Shown here piece after piece: positions 6,191 through 61,241 of a DNA stretch of 64,000 nucleotides. The stretch spans positions 62,001 to 126,000 of the forward strand of contig JAPOVK010000019.1 of NCBI GenBank assembly GCA_026708185.1, read 5' to 3'. This stretch comes from Gammaproteobacteria bacterium. GTDB taxonomy: Bacteria > Pseudomonadota > Gammaproteobacteria > Pseudomonadales > Azotimanducaceae. The notes below the pieces were generated by a model that worked only from the letters and a program-made list of their open reading frames with translations, made no database searches and was not told the origin of the DNA. The translations under genes were made by a program, and so were the position numbers. How positions within the stretch are numbered: position 1 is the stretch's first letter; each line of letters starts with the position of its first letter.

Positions 6191-6481
6191 GAACATCGCC
6201 CTTTTCAGAGTCGCTGTGGGGTTGCCCACCCTTTGCCCGACCGCGCCAGGTGCCGCGGGACCGGCGCGCCGGACAAAGCGTGGACAACCCCGACGCCGGC
6301 GTCGTCCTTTTCGGCGGACGACGTGGAAGACCCGCCCGAGGCTGGCGCCGGCGAGCCTTGTCGCGGCTATCGGGCTCTTCTTAGCCCTACAGCAGAACAT
6401 AGCCCATTTCTATTCGGGCGGATTGTAGGGGGTCGCCGCACGCGGTGGGGCGAGAGCCACACAGATCGAAAAGGGCGATGT
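6191..6481. repeat. RAYT-associated repeat cluster 1 (inverted ends, one 74-nt palindrome)
   Basis: This block fills the middle of the 586-base gap between the ASPIC gene and the serine hydrolase. It begins with AACATCGCCCTTTTC at 6191-6205 and ends with its exact inverse at 6467-6481. A degenerate copy, AACATAGCCCATTTC, sits at 6395-6409. Inside lie one long imperfect palindrome (6217-6290), a perfect 14-bp palindrome (6290-6303) and a hairpin CGTCGTCC/GGACGACG (6299-6322). The same ends and palindrome recur near 10.0-10.5 kb. No protein-coding signal is convincing here. The rest of the gap (6067-6190 and 6482-6652) shows nothing else. Confidence 0.8.
6217..6290 (+). repeat. REPIN-like 74-nt palindrome, copy 1
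   Basis: The left arm begins GGGGTTGCCCACCCTTTG and the right arm ends in its near-inverse CAAAGCGTGGACAACCCC; the inner CGCGCC...GGCGCG segment lets the whole 74 nt fold as one long imperfect hairpin. Copies 2 and 3 (10224-10297 and 10442-10515) have exactly the same length in the opposite orientation. Confidence 0.8.
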
Positions 6482-6652
6482 TCGCGAGCGTTGCGGCAGG
6501 AGTGCGCACTCAAATCGGTCTCGCGGGCCCTACGACTGCAGTTCCACGAAGCTGCGGTACGCCCCGCCTTCGCGTTGACGGGGCGCCATGGCCAGCCCGC
6601 GAATGGGATGGCGTAACATCCGGACTCGACCCGGTCGGTCGAGGGACGATCA

Positions 6653-7930
6653 ATGGCAGGAACACATCTGAACAATCTGAGCCGGCGCGACTTCGGCCGA
6701 CTTTCCATGGTGGCGCTCGGTGGCGCGCTGGCCGGCACTTCGCGGGCGGAATCCGACGAACGGTCGGAAATGCCTCGGATCGCCGGGACAGTGGCTCCCG
6801 GATTCGAGCGGGTCAGGGACGCCTTTGCGGCCAACTTCGAACACAACGGCGAGGTCGGCGCTGCCTGCAGCGTGTATCACCGCGGCGAGAAGGTGGTGGA
6901 TCTCTGGGGCGGCGTGGCCGACCAGAAGAGCGGCCGCCCATGGGTCGAGGACAGCATTGTCTTGGTGTTCTCAAGCACCAAAGGGGCGACCGCGATCTGT
7001 GCAAACCTCCTGGTCCAGCGCGGCGAGCTCGACCTCGACGCCCCGGTCGCCCAGTATTGGCCGGAGTTCGCCGCCGCGGGCAAGCAGGACATCCCGGTGC
7101 GCTTCCTGCTGTCCCACCAAGTCGGGCTCCCCGTCCTCGACAAGCCACTTGCGATCGAGGATTTCCTCGCGTGGGAGCCGCCCGTGAATGCGCTCGCGGC
7201 GCAGACCCCGGTGTGGGAGCCGGGCACCACGCACGGCTACCACGCCATGACCTACGGCTGGCTCGTCGGCGAGGTCGTCCGCAGGGTCAGCGGCAAGAGT
7301 CTCGGGACGTTCTTCGCAGACGAGGTCGCGGGCCCCTTGGGCCTCGACTTCTGGATCGGCCTACCGGCGAGCGAGGAGAGCCGGGTGAGCCCGATGATCA
7401 ACATCGACCTTGAAGATCCCGATATCGAGCCGAAGGGGGAGCGGGCGCGCGAGATGCTTGAGGCGGCCACAGACGCGGACTCCTACCTCACCCGGGAACA
7501 GACCACGACGCCACTCGATACGAGCACTCGCGAGTTCCTCGCCGCGCAACTCCCGGCAGCGAACGGCGTCACCGATGCGCGCTCGCTGGCCTGCATGTAC
7601 GCCTCGTTGATTGGCGACGGGGTCGACGGCGTGCGGCTGTTCACCGACGAGACGGTCAGACTCGCATCCGCGGTGCAGTCAGACGGCCCCGACGAGGTGG
7701 TGGGCGTTCACAGCCGTTTCGGCGCCGGCTTCTCTCTGTATTCGGAAGGCTCGCACATGATTCAGGATGGCGCGTTCGGCCATGGGGGCGCCGGCGGCTC
7801 GATCGGCTTTGCCGATCCGAAGGCCGACATCGGTTTCGGCTACGTCATGAACAAGATGCAGATGGTCAGCCACGACGATCCGCGCACGGTCAGCTTGGCC
7901 CAGGCGGTCCACGACTCGCTGGGCGCCTGA
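6653..7930 (+). CDS. serine hydrolase, beta-lactamase/EstB family
   Basis: This 425-residue protein has a Tat-like signal at its N-terminus (SRRDFGRL, then a hydrophobic stretch ending TSRA). The family is the class C beta-lactamase fold; most members are esterases or peptidases. The catalytic SxxK is Ser107-Ser-Thr-Lys110. The second motif Tyr is about residue 196 (YHAMTYG), and the KTG-equivalent is HGGAGG near the C-terminus. The ATG at 6653 is preceded by GAGGGA at a suitable distance. It stands alone between the repeat cluster and the LLM gene. I infer a periplasmic ester or amide hydrolase; substrate unknown. Confidence 0.85.
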   Translation: MAGTHLNNLSRRDFGRLSMVALGGALAGTSRAESDERSEMPRIAGTVAPGFERVRDAFAANFEHNGEVGAACSVYHRGEKVVDLWGGVADQKSGRPWVEDSIVLVFSSTKGATAICANLLVQRGELDLDAPVAQYWPEFAAAGKQDIPVRFLLSHQVGLPVLDKPLAIEDFLAWEPPVNALAAQTPVWEPGTTHGYHAMTYGWLVGEVVRRVSGKSLGTFFADEVAGPLGLDFWIGLPASEESRVSPMINIDLEDPDIEPKGERAREMLEAATDADSYLTREQTTTPLDTSTREFLAAQLPAANGVTDARSLACMYASLIGDGVDGVRLFTDETVRLASAVQSDGPDEVVGVHSRFGAGFSLYSEGSHMIQDGAFGHGGAGGSIGFADPKADIGFGYVMNKMQMVSHDDPRTVSLAQAVHDSLGA

Positions 7931-8050
7931 CAGCAGGGCGTTGTTCACTAGCATCGACGGAAAGGTCGCCGTTCTCATGGGCGCCGCCACCCGCGAGGGG
8001 AATCCGACCCGCTGCTAGACTGGCGGCAAAAGGGGACACCGGGAAAGAGC

Positions 8051-8968
8051 ATGCGTTTCGGGTTTTGGCCAAGTCCGTGGTTGCCGTACACGCAGGCAAT
8101 CGAGCTTTGTACCCATGCCGAAGCAACCGGATGGGACGGTGTCTGGGTCGCCGACCACTTCATGGCTGCGGGGCGCACGCCGATGCCCTTCCCGGAGGCG
8201 TGGACCACCTTGTCGGCGATCGCTGCACGCGTACCGCGGGTACGGGTTGGCACGATGGTGACCGGCAATACCTACCGGCACCCCGCCGTGCTCGCGAAGA
8301 TGGCGGCGACGTTGGACCACATCACGGGCGGCCGGGTGGTGCTCGGCCTGGGCGCCGGCTGGCAGGAGAACGAGCATCGCCAATACGGCATCGAATTCAG
8401 CGACGTGCCCGGCCGCCTGGCCCGGCTCGACGAAGCGTGTCAAGTCATCAAGTCCCTCTACTCCCAGCCCGTCAGCAACTTCGCTGGACGCCACTACCAG
8501 CTCACCGAAGCGACGCTCGATCCGAAGCCGGTGCAGCGGCCACTCCCGCTCTTGATCGGCGGTGGGGGCGAAAAGGTCACCCTGAAGATCACCGCGAAGT
8601 ACGCCGACGAATGGAACCACTGGGGCGATCCCGCCACGATGGCTCAGAAGGGGGCGATCCTCGACGCGCATTGCGCGGCGGTGGGGCGCGATCCGGCGGA
8701 GATTCAGCGCTCGGCGGCTATCCTGCTGTTCATCGGTCGAACCAAGGCCGAAGCGGACGCGCGTTGGGCCGCGTACTCCGGCGGCAACGAGCCACCCCCC
8801 TCGCCGGGCCGGATCATCGTCGGCTCGCCGGCGGAGTTGCGAGACACCGTCGCCGAGTTCGAGGAAGTCGGCGTCGACGAGATCATCGTGACCGATGCAA
8901 CGCTCGGCGAGCACGCGGAGAAGTTCCAGGCAATGGATCTCCTGGTGCGCGAGGTGGCTGGTCGCTAG
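8051..8968 (+). CDS. LLM-class (luciferase-like) flavin-dependent oxidoreductase
   Basis: This 305-residue protein is of the bacterial luciferase-like TIM-barrel family, usually F420- or FMN-dependent. Family blocks visible are GWDGVWVADHF near the N-terminus, VGTMVTGNTYRHPAVLAKMAATLDHITGGR, LGLGAGW and PLLIGGGGEKVTLK. The start is ATG 8051 behind a GGGAAAGAG ribosome site. It is 120 bases downstream of the hydrolase and points towards the RAYT gene. The substrate is not predictable; a second, divergent LLM gene lies at 46689-47528. Confidence 0.88.
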   Translation: MRFGFWPSPWLPYTQAIELCTHAEATGWDGVWVADHFMAAGRTPMPFPEAWTTLSAIAARVPRVRVGTMVTGNTYRHPAVLAKMAATLDHITGGRVVLGLGAGWQENEHRQYGIEFSDVPGRLARLDEACQVIKSLYSQPVSNFAGRHYQLTEATLDPKPVQRPLPLLIGGGGEKVTLKITAKYADEWNHWGDPATMAQKGAILDAHCAAVGRDPAEIQRSAAILLFIGRTKAEADARWAAYSGGNEPPPSPGRIIVGSPAELRDTVAEFEEVGVDEIIVTDATLGEHAEKFQAMDLLVREVAGR

Positions 8969-9078
8969 GACGCAGGCCCCGGCTTGGGCGCCAGTCACCG
9001 ATACCGGCGGGTGCCGCGCGGCGCTACGAGGGCGGCAGCATCACACGAACAGGTACGCGCGCAGCGTCCCGGCGGTGC

Positions 9079-9124
9079 GCGGTCTACTGTTGCCGCTCAC
9101 GCGTCGACCACCGCAACAGTCCGC
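9079..9124. repeat. hairpin at the 3' end of the RAYT gene
   Basis: GCGG-TCT-ACTGTTGC pairs with GCAACAGT-CCGC across a 19-nt loop (9094-9112), five bases beyond the RAYT stop codon. The left arm repeats the CTACTGT word found at 9935-9941 upstream of the RAYT gene. It may be a subterminal hairpin of an IS200-type element or a terminator; no T-run follows. Confidence 0.5.
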
Positions 9125-9129
9125 GAAGG

Positions 9130-9885
9130 TCAGCCCCCCGGCACCTCGGCCGGATCCACCAGCCCGATCCGCCGCCAGCCCTTCGACAGCAGCCACGTCC
9201 GCGGCGACGCCACTTCGGGCTCGCGGTTCGCGTCCGCGTACCGGCCCAGCGGCGGACCGCGGCCCTTCCAGCCGTCGAACCACAGCCCCGAACTCGCGCC
9301 GTCCAGCACCACCGGCGGAATCCGGCGGCGGCGCTGCCGGTAGTGCTTGCGCGCGTTCAGGAGAACGTACGCCAGCGCACGACGCACCTCCGTCGGCGTG
9401 CGCTTCAGCACGTGGTGGAAGCGCCCCGCCAGAACGCGCCCCTTGCGCCCGAACACCCGATTCACGCAGCGCGCGAATCGCGCCGCCAGGCTCTTCATGC
9501 CGTTCGCGAGACGCCGCGCCCCCGCCGCCTCGATCAGGAAGTGCGCGTGGTCGTCCTGCACCGAGTAGTGCGCCACCCGGAACCCGGGACGGTTCCTGCA
9601 CTGGCGCAGCGTCTCCCGGAAGGCGCGCACGAAGCGCCCCCGGCGCAGCGGCGGCACGTCGTCGAGCACGCGCAGCGTGACCAGCACCGGGCAGCGCCCG
9701 GGGATGGCGCCGCGGCTGCGGTGCGCCACCCGCGAGCGGCGCTTGCGCGGACGTCCGGCGCCGGGCCGCGCGCCGCCGCGGCCGGCGGGCCTGAACTCGA
9801 GGCTGGTCTGCCGTGGCCGCCGGCGCCGTCGGACCTGCCGCGGCTTCCGCTTTCCGGTGTTCGGGGGACGACGTTTCCCTTGCAC
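9130..9885 (-). CDS. RAYT: REP-associated Y1 (IS200-like) transposase
   Basis: This 251-residue protein has a very Arg-rich N-terminus (residues 1-55, including GARPGAGRPRK) and a Y1-transposase core. The HUH pair is His-Ala-His in QDDHAHFLIE; the catalytic Tyr is probably in RALAYVLLNARKH, the usual position on the last helix. Family members cut single-stranded DNA at REP/REPIN hairpins and are single-copy housekeeping-like genes rather than active insertion sequences. The flanking palindromes at 6217-6290, 10224-10297 and 10442-10515 fit as its substrates. The start is GTG 9885, with a possible promoter at 9922-9955. The codons for the N-terminus are extremely GC-rich. Confidence 0.85.
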   Translation of the reverse strand: MQGKRRPPNTGKRKPRQVRRRRRPRQTSLEFRPAGRGGARPGAGRPRKRRSRVAHRSRGAIPGRCPVLVTLRVLDDVPPLRRGRFVRAFRETLRQCRNRPGFRVAHYSVQDDHAHFLIEAAGARRLANGMKSLAARFARCVNRVFGRKGRVLAGRFHHVLKRTPTEVRRALAYVLLNARKHYRQRRRRIPPVVLDGASSGLWFDGWKGRGPPLGRYADANREPEVASPRTWLLSKGWRRIGLVDPAEVPGG

Positions 9886-9921
9886 GAGGCGTCACCGTGG
9901 TGGGTACTGCATTCGGGGAAC

Positions 9922-9955
9922 AGCCTACTCCCAACTACTGTATATGTCAACAGTA
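9922..9955 (-). promoter_or_regulatory. candidate RAYT promoter inside a palindrome
   Basis: On the minus strand, TACTGTTGACATATACAGTA (9955-9936) is an imperfect palindrome with arms TACTGT/ACAGTA. It contains a perfect -35 hexamer TTGACA (9950-9945). A TAGGCT at 9927-9922 gives a 17-bp spacer. The palindrome overlaps the -35, so it could be an operator. This is an AT-rich island in GC-rich DNA, about 35-70 bases before the RAYT start. Confidence 0.5.
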
Positions 9956-10003
9956 TTCTGGTGCATTGCCGGAGAAGTCGACGGAGTTCGCCCCCCGCAC
10001 CCG

Positions 10004-10018
10004 AACATCGCCCTTTTC
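10004..10018 (+). repeat. inverted end motif of repeat cluster 2
   Basis: AACATCGCCCTTTTC, identical to 6191-6205 and the inverse of the motif ending each 217-bp unit at 10309-10323 and 10527-10541. It marks the left side of repeat cluster 2. Confidence 0.7.
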
Positions 10019-10223
10019 ATGCACTCTATCCGATAACGCGCTGCGAACGGCCCGGTCGGGCTTGCTCTGCCATGGCCCCGTGCGCCGGACTTGAAACGAG
10101 CGATGTCCTGGAGGCTGTGCGTGGACAGCCCCGGCACGGCCGAACCGTACAAGACCTCGTGGCAACAGGCCCGAGGGAGCCCTCGCCAGGCCTTGCCGGC
10201 CGAACAATGACGACGCCGCCGAA

Positions 10224-10297
10224 GGGGTTGTCCACGCTTTGTCCATCGCGCCGGTCCTGCGGTACCTGGCGCGGCTCGGCAAAGGGTGGGCAACCCC
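10224..10297 (-). repeat. REPIN-like 74-nt palindrome, copy 2
   Basis: Same length as copies 1 and 3, opposite orientation to copy 1. Arms are GGGGTTGTCCACGCTTTG and CAAAGGGTGGGCAACCCC, with inner CGCGCC/GGCGCG pairing and an apex of about eight bases. Each arm contains a direct repeat TTGYCC-N4-TTTGYCC. Confidence 0.8.
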
Positions 10298-10441
10298 GCA
10301 CCGACGCGGAAAAGGGCGATGTTCTGCTGGCGTGTGCGTGGACAGCCCCTGCACGGCCGAACCGTGCAAGACCTCGTGGCAACAGGCCCGAAGGCGCGCT
10401 CTCCCGGCCTCGCCAGCTGAAACGGTGACGGCGACGCCGAA

Positions 10442-10515
10442 GGGGTTGTCCACGCTTTGTCCATCGCGCCGGTCCTGCGGTACCTGGCGCGGCTGGGCAA
10501 AGGGTGGGCAACCCC
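10442..10515 (-). repeat. REPIN-like 74-nt palindrome, copy 3
   Basis: Nearly identical to copy 2 over the whole 74 nt and part of the second 217-bp unit. It lies 76 bases before the end of the FG-GAP/ASPIC gene that converges on it, so it could also act as a transcript 3' end. Confidence 0.8.
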
Positions 10516-10590
10516 ACACCGACGCTGAAAAGGGCGATGTTCTGTATGAAGCGCGGGTTGTGTTCAACAGCTCTGTGGTGCGCGGCGTTT

Positions 10591-12234
10591 TCACCGCGCC
10601 TTGCGCAGGATGTGATAGCGGTTGACTGGCAGCGGCCCGAACTGCCGCTCAACGCCGTCGGGCCAGCGTAGCGTGACGCGGCGTGGTTCGTTGGCTGGTC
10701 CCAGCCCGAAGACCACGCGGGGGTCGTGGGCCGATGCGTAGCTGCCGTCGGTGCGTACCCGGCTCGGCCCGATCCCGGGCCGGTCGATCCAGACCCGGGC
10801 GCCGATCGGCGGGCTCGTGCCCGCATCGACGACCACACCTAGCCATGAGGCCCTCGGCGTGTCGTTGCGGTAGAGCCGCGCCCGCGAGTAATTGTTGGCG
10901 ACGACCATGTCGATGTCGCCGTCGTTGTCGAGGTCGCCGAACGCGGTGCCGCGGCTCGCGTGCTCGAGCGCGAACGCCGGACCACCGGCCGTGCGGCGGT
11001 ATCGGCTGGCGTCGTTCAGCCAAAGCTGGTTGCGCTGGCGTAGGGGCGGGCCGTCGGACGCGGCCAGCTGGCCGGGGACGAAGCGGACGGTGCCGTTGGC
11101 GGCGAAGAGGTCGAGGTCGCCGTCGTTGTCGACATCCACCCAGCCGGTGCCGAACCCCGTGAAGGCGAGGCTCCCGGCGGCTGCGCCCGCGATGTCGGTC
11201 CGATCCTCGAACGTGCCCTGGCCGTCGTTGACGTAGAGCGTATTGGTCTCACCCGTGTCGTGGGTGAGGAACAGGTCGCTGTCGCCGTCGGCGTCGAAAT
11301 CGCCCGCCGTCACGCCCATGCTGGCCTCGGCGCTCCCGGCACTGTTCACCGCCGCGCCGGCGCTTAGCCCCGCGTCCGTGAAGCGGCCCGCGCCGTCGTT
11401 GATCCACAGCAGGTTGGCGCTGCCGTCGTTGGCGACGTAGAAGTCGACCTGGCCGTCGTCGTCGAAGTCATCGGCGATCACGCCCATGCCGGCGGCGCGC
11501 GCGACGTCGATCCCGGCGGCGACGGTGACGTCCTGGAACCGGCCGCCGCCAAGATTGCGGTAGAGGCGATCGCCCACGCCGGGGAACAGTGAAGGCGGAC
11601 AGTAGCTCCGCTGGCCGGCGACATGGCAGGGCTTGGCGGTGTCGATCGCGAAATCCAGGTAGTTCGCGACATAGAGGTCGAGCAGTCCGTCGCCGTCGAC
11701 GTCCGCGAAACTCGCGCTGATGGACCAGCGCTCGCCGGCGATGCCGGAGTCGGCGGTTGCGTTGCGGAAACGGCCGTCACCGAGATTGAGCCATAGCTCG
11801 TTGGCCCCGTAGTTGGCGACGAAGACATCCATGTCGCCGTCGTTGTCGACGTCGGCGGTGGCGATGCCCATGCCGTACCGGGTGGCCGCGATGCCCGCCT
11901 TCTCGGTGACGTCCTCGAAAGCAAGCTCGCCCATGTTGCGGAACAGCCGGTCGCTCGGTAACTCGGCCGTGGCGCGCCCGACGAGCGGGCCGCCCTGGAC
12001 CAGCCAGATGTCCATGCGTCCGTCGCCGTCGTAGTCGAGGATCCCCACGCCGGCGCCGATGATCTCCAGCGTCCATAGCTCGCCTGTCATGCCGCTTGCG
12101 TGGGTGAAGTCGAGGCCCGCCTCAACGGTGGCATCCACAAAACGCCCGCCCGCGCTGCCGCCGAAACCCCATCCCAGCGCGGCGAACAGCAATGCCCGCG
12201 CGGAACCGCTCAAGGCTGTCGGCGCAGTTCCCAT
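10591..12234 (-). CDS. FG-GAP repeat / ASPIC-UnbV (CRTAC1-like) protein
   Basis: This 547-residue protein has an N-terminal signal-like stretch (residues about 10-30, ending GGSAGG). A propeller follows with FG-GAP Ca loops DYDGDGRMDIW, DVDNDGDMDVF, DVDGDGLLDLY, DFDDDGQVDFY, DFDADGDSDLF, DVDNDGDLDLF and DLDNDGDIDMV. The C-terminal ASPIC/UnbV domain contains IGARVWI and LRWPDGV. The ATG start at 12234 lies 25 bases inside the upstream ASPIC gene. It is the last gene of the minus-strand operon. The function is unknown; the family is extracytoplasmic. Confidence 0.88.
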   Translation of the reverse strand: MGTAPTALSGSARALLFAALGWGFGGSAGGRFVDATVEAGLDFTHASGMTGELWTLEIIGAGVGILDYDGDGRMDIWLVQGGPLVGRATAELPSDRLFRNMGELAFEDVTEKAGIAATRYGMGIATADVDNDGDMDVFVANYGANELWLNLGDGRFRNATADSGIAGERWSISASFADVDGDGLLDLYVANYLDFAIDTAKPCHVAGQRSYCPPSLFPGVGDRLYRNLGGGRFQDVTVAAGIDVARAAGMGVIADDFDDDGQVDFYVANDGSANLLWINDGAGRFTDAGLSAGAAVNSAGSAEASMGVTAGDFDADGDSDLFLTHDTGETNTLYVNDGQGTFEDRTDIAGAAAGSLAFTGFGTGWVDVDNDGDLDLFAANGTVRFVPGQLAASDGPPLRQRNQLWLNDASRYRRTAGGPAFALEHASRGTAFGDLDNDGDIDMVVANNYSRARLYRNDTPRASWLGVVVDAGTSPPIGARVWIDRPGIGPSRVRTDGSYASAHDPRVVFGLGPANEPRRVTLRWPDGVERQFGPLPVNRYHILRKAR

Positions 12235-60470: not shown

Positions 60471-61241
60471 CTACTCCGGGTCGAGGTATTCGATCACTGG
60501 TTCGTCGGGCAAGTCCTCGCCGACCGTCCACTGCTGCAGCAGTTGCCCGGCCTCGGCGATCTGCTTCTTCGACATCTTGCGCGTGAGCAAGCCGCGCATC
60601 CCCCCGGCTGGACGGCCCACTGGTTGGCTTGCGACGCCTGCGACCGCGAGCTTCATCCCGTCGGGCATCCTCCCGAACTTCACGTAGTCCAAGTACGCAA
60701 GCGCCTTCACGGAGTCGCGACGAACACCGCGGCCACCCGCTGCGTAGATGTAGTGCATCCCGAGGCGGGCGACTGCACTCCCCTGCTGCGAGGCCAGACC
60801 GTACCACTCCAACGCCCGCGGATAGTCCGGCGGGGTCGACATGCGGTAGAGCTGACCGAGCTCTTCCTGGGCCCAGATGTGGCCGGCCTCCGCAGCCGGG
60901 AGGCACCATGCCTTGGCCTTCGCGCGATCCCGTTCGACGCCCCGGCCCCGGGCATAGGCCTCGCAGAGCCGCCACTGCGCCTCGGCATGGCCCTGCTCGG
61001 CGGCCCGGCGGTACCAGACCACAGCCTCGCCATAGTCCCTGTCGACACCCTGGCCCGTCTGGTACGCGAGGCCGAGGGCGGTCTGCGCATGCGCATCGCC
61101 CTGTTCCGCGTCGCCTCTGTACCGTTCCGCCGCGCCTTCGGCGGGCTCGTGGCCGGTGGAATCGTCTAGGCGCTGCTCGGCGAACGCCAAGCCGGCGACG
61201 AGCGCAAGACCGACTTTCGCAAGCACGACGGCGTAGCCCAC
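60471..61241 (-). CDS. Sel1-like repeat protein, copy 2
   Basis: This 256-residue protein has a signal-like N-terminus (VVLAKVGLALVAGLAFAEQ) and four Sel1 repeats: AHAQTALGLAYQTGQGVDRDYGEAVVWYRRAAEQG, then AEAQWRLCEAYARGRGVERDR and two more. A conserved C-terminal block, LTRKMSKKQIAEAGQLLQQWTVGE, follows. It starts with GTG. It is exactly as long as the paralogue at 61406-62176 and similar throughout, so it arose by tandem duplication. Probably a periplasmic adaptor for the neighbouring transporter; partner unknown. Confidence 0.83.
   Translation of the reverse strand: MGYAVVLAKVGLALVAGLAFAEQRLDDSTGHEPAEGAAERYRGDAEQGDAHAQTALGLAYQTGQGVDRDYGEAVVWYRRAAEQGHAEAQWRLCEAYARGRGVERDRAKAKAWCLPAAEAGHIWAQEELGQLYRMSTPPDYPRALEWYGLASQQGSAVARLGMHYIYAAGGRGVRRDSVKALAYLDYVKFGRMPDGMKLAVAGVASQPVGRPAGGMRGLLTRKMSKKQIAEAGQLLQQWTVGEDLPDEPVIEYLDPE

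Follow-up and report, generated by a model that had tools for sequence, protein, structure and literature searches.

A multi-copy, insertion-sequence-like RAYT lineage with REP/REPIN-type repeats and a putative LexA operator in its promoter

We analyzed a 64,000-nucleotide stretch of DNA (the window, G000:C23:62001-126000) from G000, a metagenome-assembled genome (MAG) of 5.13 Mb in 65 contigs with 97% completeness and 3.7% contamination. The window carries a Y1/HUH transposase gene of the RAYT type, that is, of the transposases associated with repetitive extragenic palindromic (REP) repeats. Two kinds of repeat surround the gene: T16, a 16-nt motif (GAACATCGCCCTTTTC), and P74, a 74-nt palindrome (Table 1). 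We consider it likely that the gene belongs to an insertion sequence (IS)-like, probably SOS-controlled RAYT lineage, a REPtron accompanied by REP/REPIN-type satellites.

The transposase is multi-copy and lies at many sites. In G000, its 3' part was found at 10 places, and at 7 of these it lies no more than 3 nt from where the contig ends. A search of 58 genomes, including 16 from the genus, returned matches in 21, comprising 10 of the 16 genus genomes and 11 others that matched weakly (E 6e-7 or worse, 20-35% identity). Counted as match rows with fragments included, there were 20 in G007, 14 in G008, and 24 in G010, and no transposase match was obtained in G005, G009, or G012-G015. The named relatives, at 42 loci, are Gammaproteobacteria or Pseudomonadales MAGs, some of which we take from their isolate names to be sponge-derived. 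In assembly JAJDTI, four copies (L114, L116, L117, and L122) align over 1.19-1.27 kb, beginning at a T16-like left end and finishing near the stop codon; L114 is 82-92% identical to the other three. All four have the order T16, P74, at least one T16, inverted T16, LexA-type box, and gene, and BLAST found no flank shared among them beyond the unit ends. At the C13 site, the flanking genes are 2014 nt apart in G000, compared with 133 nt in G013 and 66 nt in G012. These are MAG assemblies and many copies end contigs, as would be expected if chance, duplicated contig ends, or GC-rich palindromes had produced the pattern. We regard such an artefact as extremely improbable, as it is already contradicted by two-flank copies in several assemblies and by the covariation and shuffle tests described below.

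T16 follows the transposase. With up to 2 mismatches allowed, G000 contains 48 T16 matches, compared with 2 for the reversed control. With up to 1 mismatch, T16 counts ranged from 18 to 66 among the 10 genus genomes with RAYT matches and from 6 to 13 among the 6 without, and across all 16 the Spearman correlation between T16 count and RAYT match rows (fragments included) was 0.92, the RAYT being the sole transposase in this comparison. Within the window, five exact T16 copies, one with 2 mismatches, and one with 3 form two clusters around the gene, and an isolated eighth match with 3 mismatches lies at 61091. These 8 matches (≤3 mismatches) compare with 0.41 expected from shuffles and a maximum of 3 in 100 shuffles. 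The window and the fetched G000 loci contain nine inverted T16 pairs whose interiors have diverged; the pairs span 89-144 nt, and seven fall within 103-113 nt. As in REPINs, each pair consists of two inverted repeats forming a long hairpin, and the pairs are dispersed in the genome. The initial annotation had proposed that the repeats are cognate to the RAYT, with tens of intergenic copies as a sign of support. The G000 searches show the repeats to be multi-copy and exclude the case of only three copies; the proposal holds for T16, whose counts follow the transposase, and partially for P74, which also occurs in two RAYT-less genomes.

Inverted pairs of this kind could also arise if T16 were the terminal inverted repeat (TIR) of a TIRYT-type or DDE-type element, with the modules being miniature inverted-repeat transposable elements moved as double-stranded DNA. 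The nine pairs with diverged interiors fit this explanation, TIRYTs with repeated TIR families are described in excerpts of PMC3733652, and T16 was found 3' of the gene in C57, C55, and L145, at 437, 517, and 464 nt, respectively. However, T16 with up to 1 mismatch lay within 500 nt 3' of the gene in none of eight two-flank copies from five assemblies (L114-L118, L122, L124, and L125) and in one of 10 G000 places (C57). Moreover, the T16 sequence does not contain GGGGWSAS, the motif of the majority of TIRYTs. We therefore consider a TIR-based origin unlikely. In the window, a T16 match with 2 mismatches 3' of the transposase gene falls within the neighboring gene.

The promoter region of the gene contains a perfect LexA/SOS-type box, TACTGT-N8-ACAGTA. 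A box with up to 2 mismatches was present upstream of 19 of 20 RAYT copies examined, compared with 1 of 1000 random windows, and the single copy without it, L118, looks 5'-truncated. Because RAYT copies are related, the 19 boxed copies are not 19 independent events. The distance to the gene was 44-54 nt in 17 of 18 cases and 70 nt in the other (L084), with some gene starts set by hand. The half-sites persist across relatives while the N8 spacer and the flanks differ. Among 18 upstream regions listed, TTGACA or TTTACA falls within the box in 16. The -10 is TA-type, at a distance of 17 nt, in 14 of the 18; the other 4 have TAGGCT, 15-18 nt away. Elsewhere in G000, recA has a one-mismatch box 31 nt before its start codon and lexA has CTGTATATAATTGCAG (CTG-N10-CAG) 28 nt before its ATG, both supporting the gammaproteobacterial-type LexA consensus for this genome. 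The perfect box occurs at five G000 places, four upstream of RAYT copies and one upstream of a 110-aa open reading frame (ORF). The upstream region of E. coli rayT contains no such box (best match, 5 mismatches); on the same strict scale, the E. coli SOS genes dinB and dinJ score 3 and 4 mismatches.

By its sequence, the box in the RAYT promoter is of the gammaproteobacterial LexA type and represents a putative operator, and the lineage is probably SOS-controlled. Because the box overlies the putative -35, LexA would be expected to repress the gene and DNA damage to release it. Any palindromic operator would be conserved, and the role of LexA is a prediction, so the box could instead serve another repressor or the transposase itself. 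This appears improbable, given that its half-sites and spacing equal those of the recA box with one mismatch and resemble the lexA promoter, that it overlaps the -35, and that the half-sites are kept while N8 varies. Among the literature matches listed for LexA or SOS paired with RAYT or related terms, none reports SOS control of a RAYT; PMC7606416, in the portion retrieved, merely names rayT in a table. LexA/SOS control of an HUH transposase has been shown experimentally for ISCR/IS91 elements, according to excerpts of PMC13393415. Two boxes in G000 precede other ORFs. The 110-aa ORF behind the perfect box at C31:116655 (L107 3156-3513) has no Pfam or NCBIfam match and is a candidate SOS gene, and a one-mismatch box at C47:64421 (L109 2922-4612) immediately precedes a 555-aa ORF whose IscB/HNH-type matches are weak.

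P74 is a genuine hairpin. When folded as single-stranded DNA, the three window palindromes gave z values of -4.3 to -7.9 on both strands relative to dinucleotide shuffles (copy 1 taken as 6217-6290), and every fold was better than all 200 shuffles. For covariation, we aligned 26 P74 copies from six assemblies, with 22-nt outer arms and 21 pairs. The aligned copies are related to one another. A pattern requiring CCAC-type cores and partial palindromy had selected 23 of the 26, a requirement that inflates paired cells and leaves double changes unaffected. Outer-stem cells were paired in 94.9% of cases, compared with 83.5% in shuffles. Paired stem substitutions, named in the initial annotation as a sign of support, were seen as changes on both sides in 10 of the 21 outer-stem pairs. 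The covariation score was 0.324, compared with 0.140 in shuffles (0 of 500 as high) and at most 0.143 with partners slid, and further pair types in the outer stem showed no excess (17 vs. 17.2 in shuffles). The TTGYCC-N4-TTTGYCC direct repeats noted earlier hold for the window arms and not for relatives, whose constant parts are the CCAC and CCA cores alone. All 26 aligned copies, which come from RAYT-bearing assemblies, have a G-G mismatch at position 13. At two further stem positions, one strand mostly has G-T and the other C-A, which gives the strand with P74 followed by GAAAAGGGCGATGTTC a folding advantage of 3.8-8.8 kcal/mol in all four cases tested. Such unequal strands recall the hairpins of single-strand transposons.

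The protein matched the NCBIfam family REP_Tyr_transpos (NF047646) with E 1.1e-10 and 41.5 bits, below the curated cut-off of 80, and Pfam Y1_Tnp marginally under its cut-off (22.9 vs. 23 bits). In all 12 aligned RAYT sequences, (D/N)HAH and Y173 are invariant, giving an HUH motif and a single catalytic tyrosine. The tyrosine motif is YVLLN(A/V)RKH in all 12, reading YVLLNA or YVLLNV and never Y---NP, and the Y---Q motif of IS200/IS605 TnpA was not found in them either. Excerpts of PMC6006769 describe class 2 enzymes with Y---NP and IS200 with Y---Q; judged by its motifs, the present RAYT group fits neither signature. A Foldseek search with the low-confidence AlphaFold model returned 4er8, the E. 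coli RAYT with its REP hairpin (rmsd 3.3), together with the ISDra2 and IS608 transposases. These matches are carried by core residues 61-150 (block means 57-77), for which the model predicts a Y1 core fold. No relative was found in phage and plasmid collections at E 1e-5 or in a PDB sequence search at E 1. At five loci (L144-L148) of assembly JAPOYV, probably G007, the same foreign sequence is joined to the RAYT at codon ~175, in the catalytic Y motif; in L148 this sequence encodes a tyrosine recombinase (Arm-DNA-bind_3, Phage_integrase), for which the RAYT gene may be an attachment site.

Several observations weigh against a mobile, SOS-controlled RAYT lineage with its own repeats. Four of the 10 RAYT-positive genomes (G001, G004, G006, and G011) hold only transposase fragments. 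The unit ends are ragged, with weakly similar sequence left of the outermost T16 in several copies. Most G000 copies lose homology 0-61 nt beyond the stop codon and one copy 6 nt before the end, and in C13 and C57 homology extends through a downstream P74. Besides the RAYT unit, the interval at C13 includes ~0.5 kb of other sequence, and the insertion seems to be present in G007 as well; the comparison therefore shows presence and absence rather than a clean junction. Because the transposase copies are diverged, recent movement is not demonstrated. At up to 2 mismatches genome-wide, the reversed control outnumbers the box (42 vs. 23 per strand), and thus only matches with 0-1 mismatch are informative at that scale. 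The AlphaFold model is weak, with a mean pLDDT of 44.8 and values below 50 around the catalytic tyrosine, and both the Y---N(A/V) motif and the alanine between the two histidines deviate from published class signatures. By eye, the foot of P74 has no conserved GT[AG]G, a feature likewise missing from classes 2.6 and 3 as described in excerpts of PMC6006769. A universal position-13 mismatch is ruled out by copies fetched from the RAYT-less genomes G012 and G013, of which 10 of 16 are mismatched and 6 paired.

The occurrence of P74 in RAYT-less genomes also belongs on this side, and its spacing to T16 in G000 on the other. In G000, a P74-plus-flank query gave 16 matches, and the covariance model located 15 distinct places in the window and 18 fetched regions (28 matches, both strands counted). 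T16 lies 11-12 nt away on the same side in 11 of the 15; of the other four, three (L064 4541, L070, and L072) are 3' of a RAYT gene or remnant, and L062 has T16 at 67 nt. Across the genus, with the best 150 candidates per genome scored and both strands countable, all 10 RAYT-positive genomes had 6-79 model matches, and G005, G009, G014, and G015 had none. Copies in relatives lacking the RAYT, which the initial annotation had listed as evidence against its proposal, were found for the palindrome: G012 and G013 carry 30 and 5 model matches. From among the matches listed, we fetched 14 places in G012 and 2 in G013. T16 adjoins none of these 16, and the sole T16-like matches nearby have 2 mismatches and lie 0.6-1 kb off at two loci. 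Two repeated elements of ~1.6-1.7 kb, one with a helix-turn-helix ORF and one with a sub-threshold integrase-core match, account for 12 of the 14 places in G012, each of which has 225 nt or more in common with one of them. The remaining two places have a common 252-nt end, and one of these lies beside IS21 istAB genes. The first of the two G012-type elements is present at both G013 places. Because these P74 copies lie in other repeated elements without an adjacent T16, T16 is RAYT-specific and P74 is a wider hairpin family, common to several repeated, partly IS-like elements. The idea that P74 is private to the RAYT was dropped after this model search. At G012 loci L203 and L206, a repeated element with TGTCA...TGACA ends and GGGGACATTTCTGCTTTGC-type end repeats carries P74 after its ORFs and has, by eye, direct repeats at its flanks.

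P74 could thus be an independent hairpin module that accompanies several unrelated transposase genes on their 3' side, where it might, for instance, insulate transcription or form an mRNA 3' structure, and that RAYT units inherited or captured, with T16 as the sole target of the RAYT. Its occurrence in other elements in G012 and G013 favors this, as do the P74 copies 3' of RAYT genes without adjacent T16 (L064 4541, L072, L113, and L144). Conversely, T16 keeps its 11-12-nt distance at most G000 copies, and by eye the orientation to transcription varies and no U-run follows P74. We regard this alternative as a real possibility, short of probable.

In the IS-like RAYT reading that we prefer, the gene with its upstream T16/P74 array would form a unit of ~1.2 kb that has spread to many sites, and gene-less T16-P74 modules and inverted T16-T16 modules would be non-autonomous, REP/REPIN-like satellites. 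The transposase may recognize the better-folding strand as single-stranded DNA and cut and rejoin beside T16, which would determine the cut, by analogy with the way IS200/IS605 and TnpA-REP enzymes act at hairpins that have guide sequences. LexA repression of the transposase would be relieved by DNA damage, an event that exposes single-stranded DNA as well. More tentatively, we propose that this RAYT kept IS-like mobility under host SOS control, with damage derepressing the enzyme as its single-stranded substrates appear and REP repeats spreading in bursts; unrelated IS-like elements carrying the hairpin may make use of the RAYT or have a host factor in common with it.

Part of the difficulty in explaining how REP repeats spread, and when, is that most RAYTs described so far are low-copy and seem domesticated. 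The LexA-type switch before a multi-copy RAYT suggests that DNA damage could turn on the spread of small repeats. A multi-copy RAYT with a recognizable damage switch would offer a system in which REP spread could be induced and measured. If this holds, Y1/REP-type enzymes would join the ISCR transposases, for which LexA control has recently been shown.

Compared with known systems, the best description is a RAYT-like system with multiple gene copies, an unusual repeat, and a probable response to SOS. With RAYT/TnpA-REP REPtrons it shares a Y1/HUH enzyme with 4er8 among its nearest solved folds, and hairpin repeats in inverted pairs and clusters, near the gene and genome-wide. It differs from them in its multi-copy gene, in Y---N(A/V) instead of Y---NP, in the missing GT[AG]G foot, in the 16-nt T16 beside a 74-nt hairpin, and in the LexA-type box, which is absent at E. 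coli rayT. TnpAY1 subclass 2.3 is also a multi-copy class 2 group (mean 3.9 per genome), but excerpts of PMC6006769 give it NHYH, YVDLNP, a median length of 325 aa, and no REP-like structures. TIRYT/TIRtron systems, as excerpted from PMC3733652, likewise pair a RAYT-like gene with a genomic family of non-REP repeats arranged in dimers and clusters, whereas here T16 does not regularly flank the gene on both sides and is without GGGGWSAS. High copy number, truncated copies, hairpins, and the catalytic fold are common to IS200/IS605 (TnpA class 1.1), from which the present system differs by having no Y---Q, a larger protein, and a long one-sided array. ISCR/IS91 elements under LexA also have an HUH transposase gene with a promoter LexA site, predicted here and experimental there, but they belong to another HUH family, and the excerpts of PMC13393415 mention no REP-type satellites.

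The initial annotation had described the Y1 transposase ORF between the repeat clusters and three 74-nt palindromes, the first inverted relative to the others, each beside a shared 15-nt motif. The ORF list agrees on the gene, and all three palindromes and their orientation were recovered, copies 2 and 3 at identical positions. The covariance model shifts copy 1 by one nucleotide (6218-6291 rather than 6217-6290), and the shared motif is real and 16 nt long.

Table 1 Features of the transposase locus in the window
Feature	Position	Strand	Basis
Y1/HUH transposase gene (RAYT-type), 251 aa, motifs QDDHAHFLIE and YVLLNARKHY	9130..9885	-	ORF, family search, Foldseek with low-confidence model
LexA/SOS-type box TACTGT-N8-ACAGTA, two perfect half-sites	9936..9955	.	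pattern scan
Candidate -35 TTGACA, within LexA-type box	9945..9950	-	inferred from consensus
Candidate -10 TAGGCT, 17 nt downstream of candidate -35	9922..9927	-	inferred from consensus
T16, exact, 11 nt from P74 copy 1	6191..6206	+	pattern scan
P74 hairpin copy 1 (better-folding strand given)	6218..6291	-	fold and covariance model
T16, 2 mismatches; inverted pair with 6468-6483 spanning 89 nt	6395..6410	+	pattern scan
T16, exact	6468..6483	-	pattern scan
T16, exact, promoter side of transposase gene; inverted pair with 10093-10108 spanning 106 nt	10003..10018	+	pattern scan
T16, degraded, 3 mismatches	10093..10108	-	pattern scan
P74 hairpin copy 2	10224..10297	+	fold and covariance model
T16, exact, 11 nt from P74 copy 2	10309..10324	-	pattern scan
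P74 hairpin copy 3	10442..10515	+	fold and covariance model
T16, exact, 11 nt from P74 copy 3	10527..10542	-	pattern scan
Tandem duplication, ~217-nt P74+T16 unit (families D1, D2), holding P74 copies 2 and 3	10116..10544	+	repeat scan

We also considered that 6191-10542 might be a composite transposon carrying beta-lactamase-family (PF00144) and luciferase-like (PF00296) genes as cargo; on both sides of this candidate, contigs of the sister genome G007 break off within P74. An attC/integron reading was dropped on general motif grounds. A T16-bounded autonomous element in G000 C10, with T16 copies 1.9 kb apart, was rejected, as the ORF inside looks like what we take to be an IS110-type transposase. 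The C10 array (L062 5460-6800) thus holds an element with an IS110-like-looking transposase ORF among its T16 and P74 copies. In C56 (L071 738-771), a T16-bearing stretch breaks sequence related to the 3' end of window gene 10591-12234, presumably an ASPIC/UnbV-like gene. Finally, the 3' flanks of several G000 RAYT copies (e.g., L070 and L072 480-560) show, by eye, a short degenerate repeat around TGGCAACTGAAGACTGCACACT.

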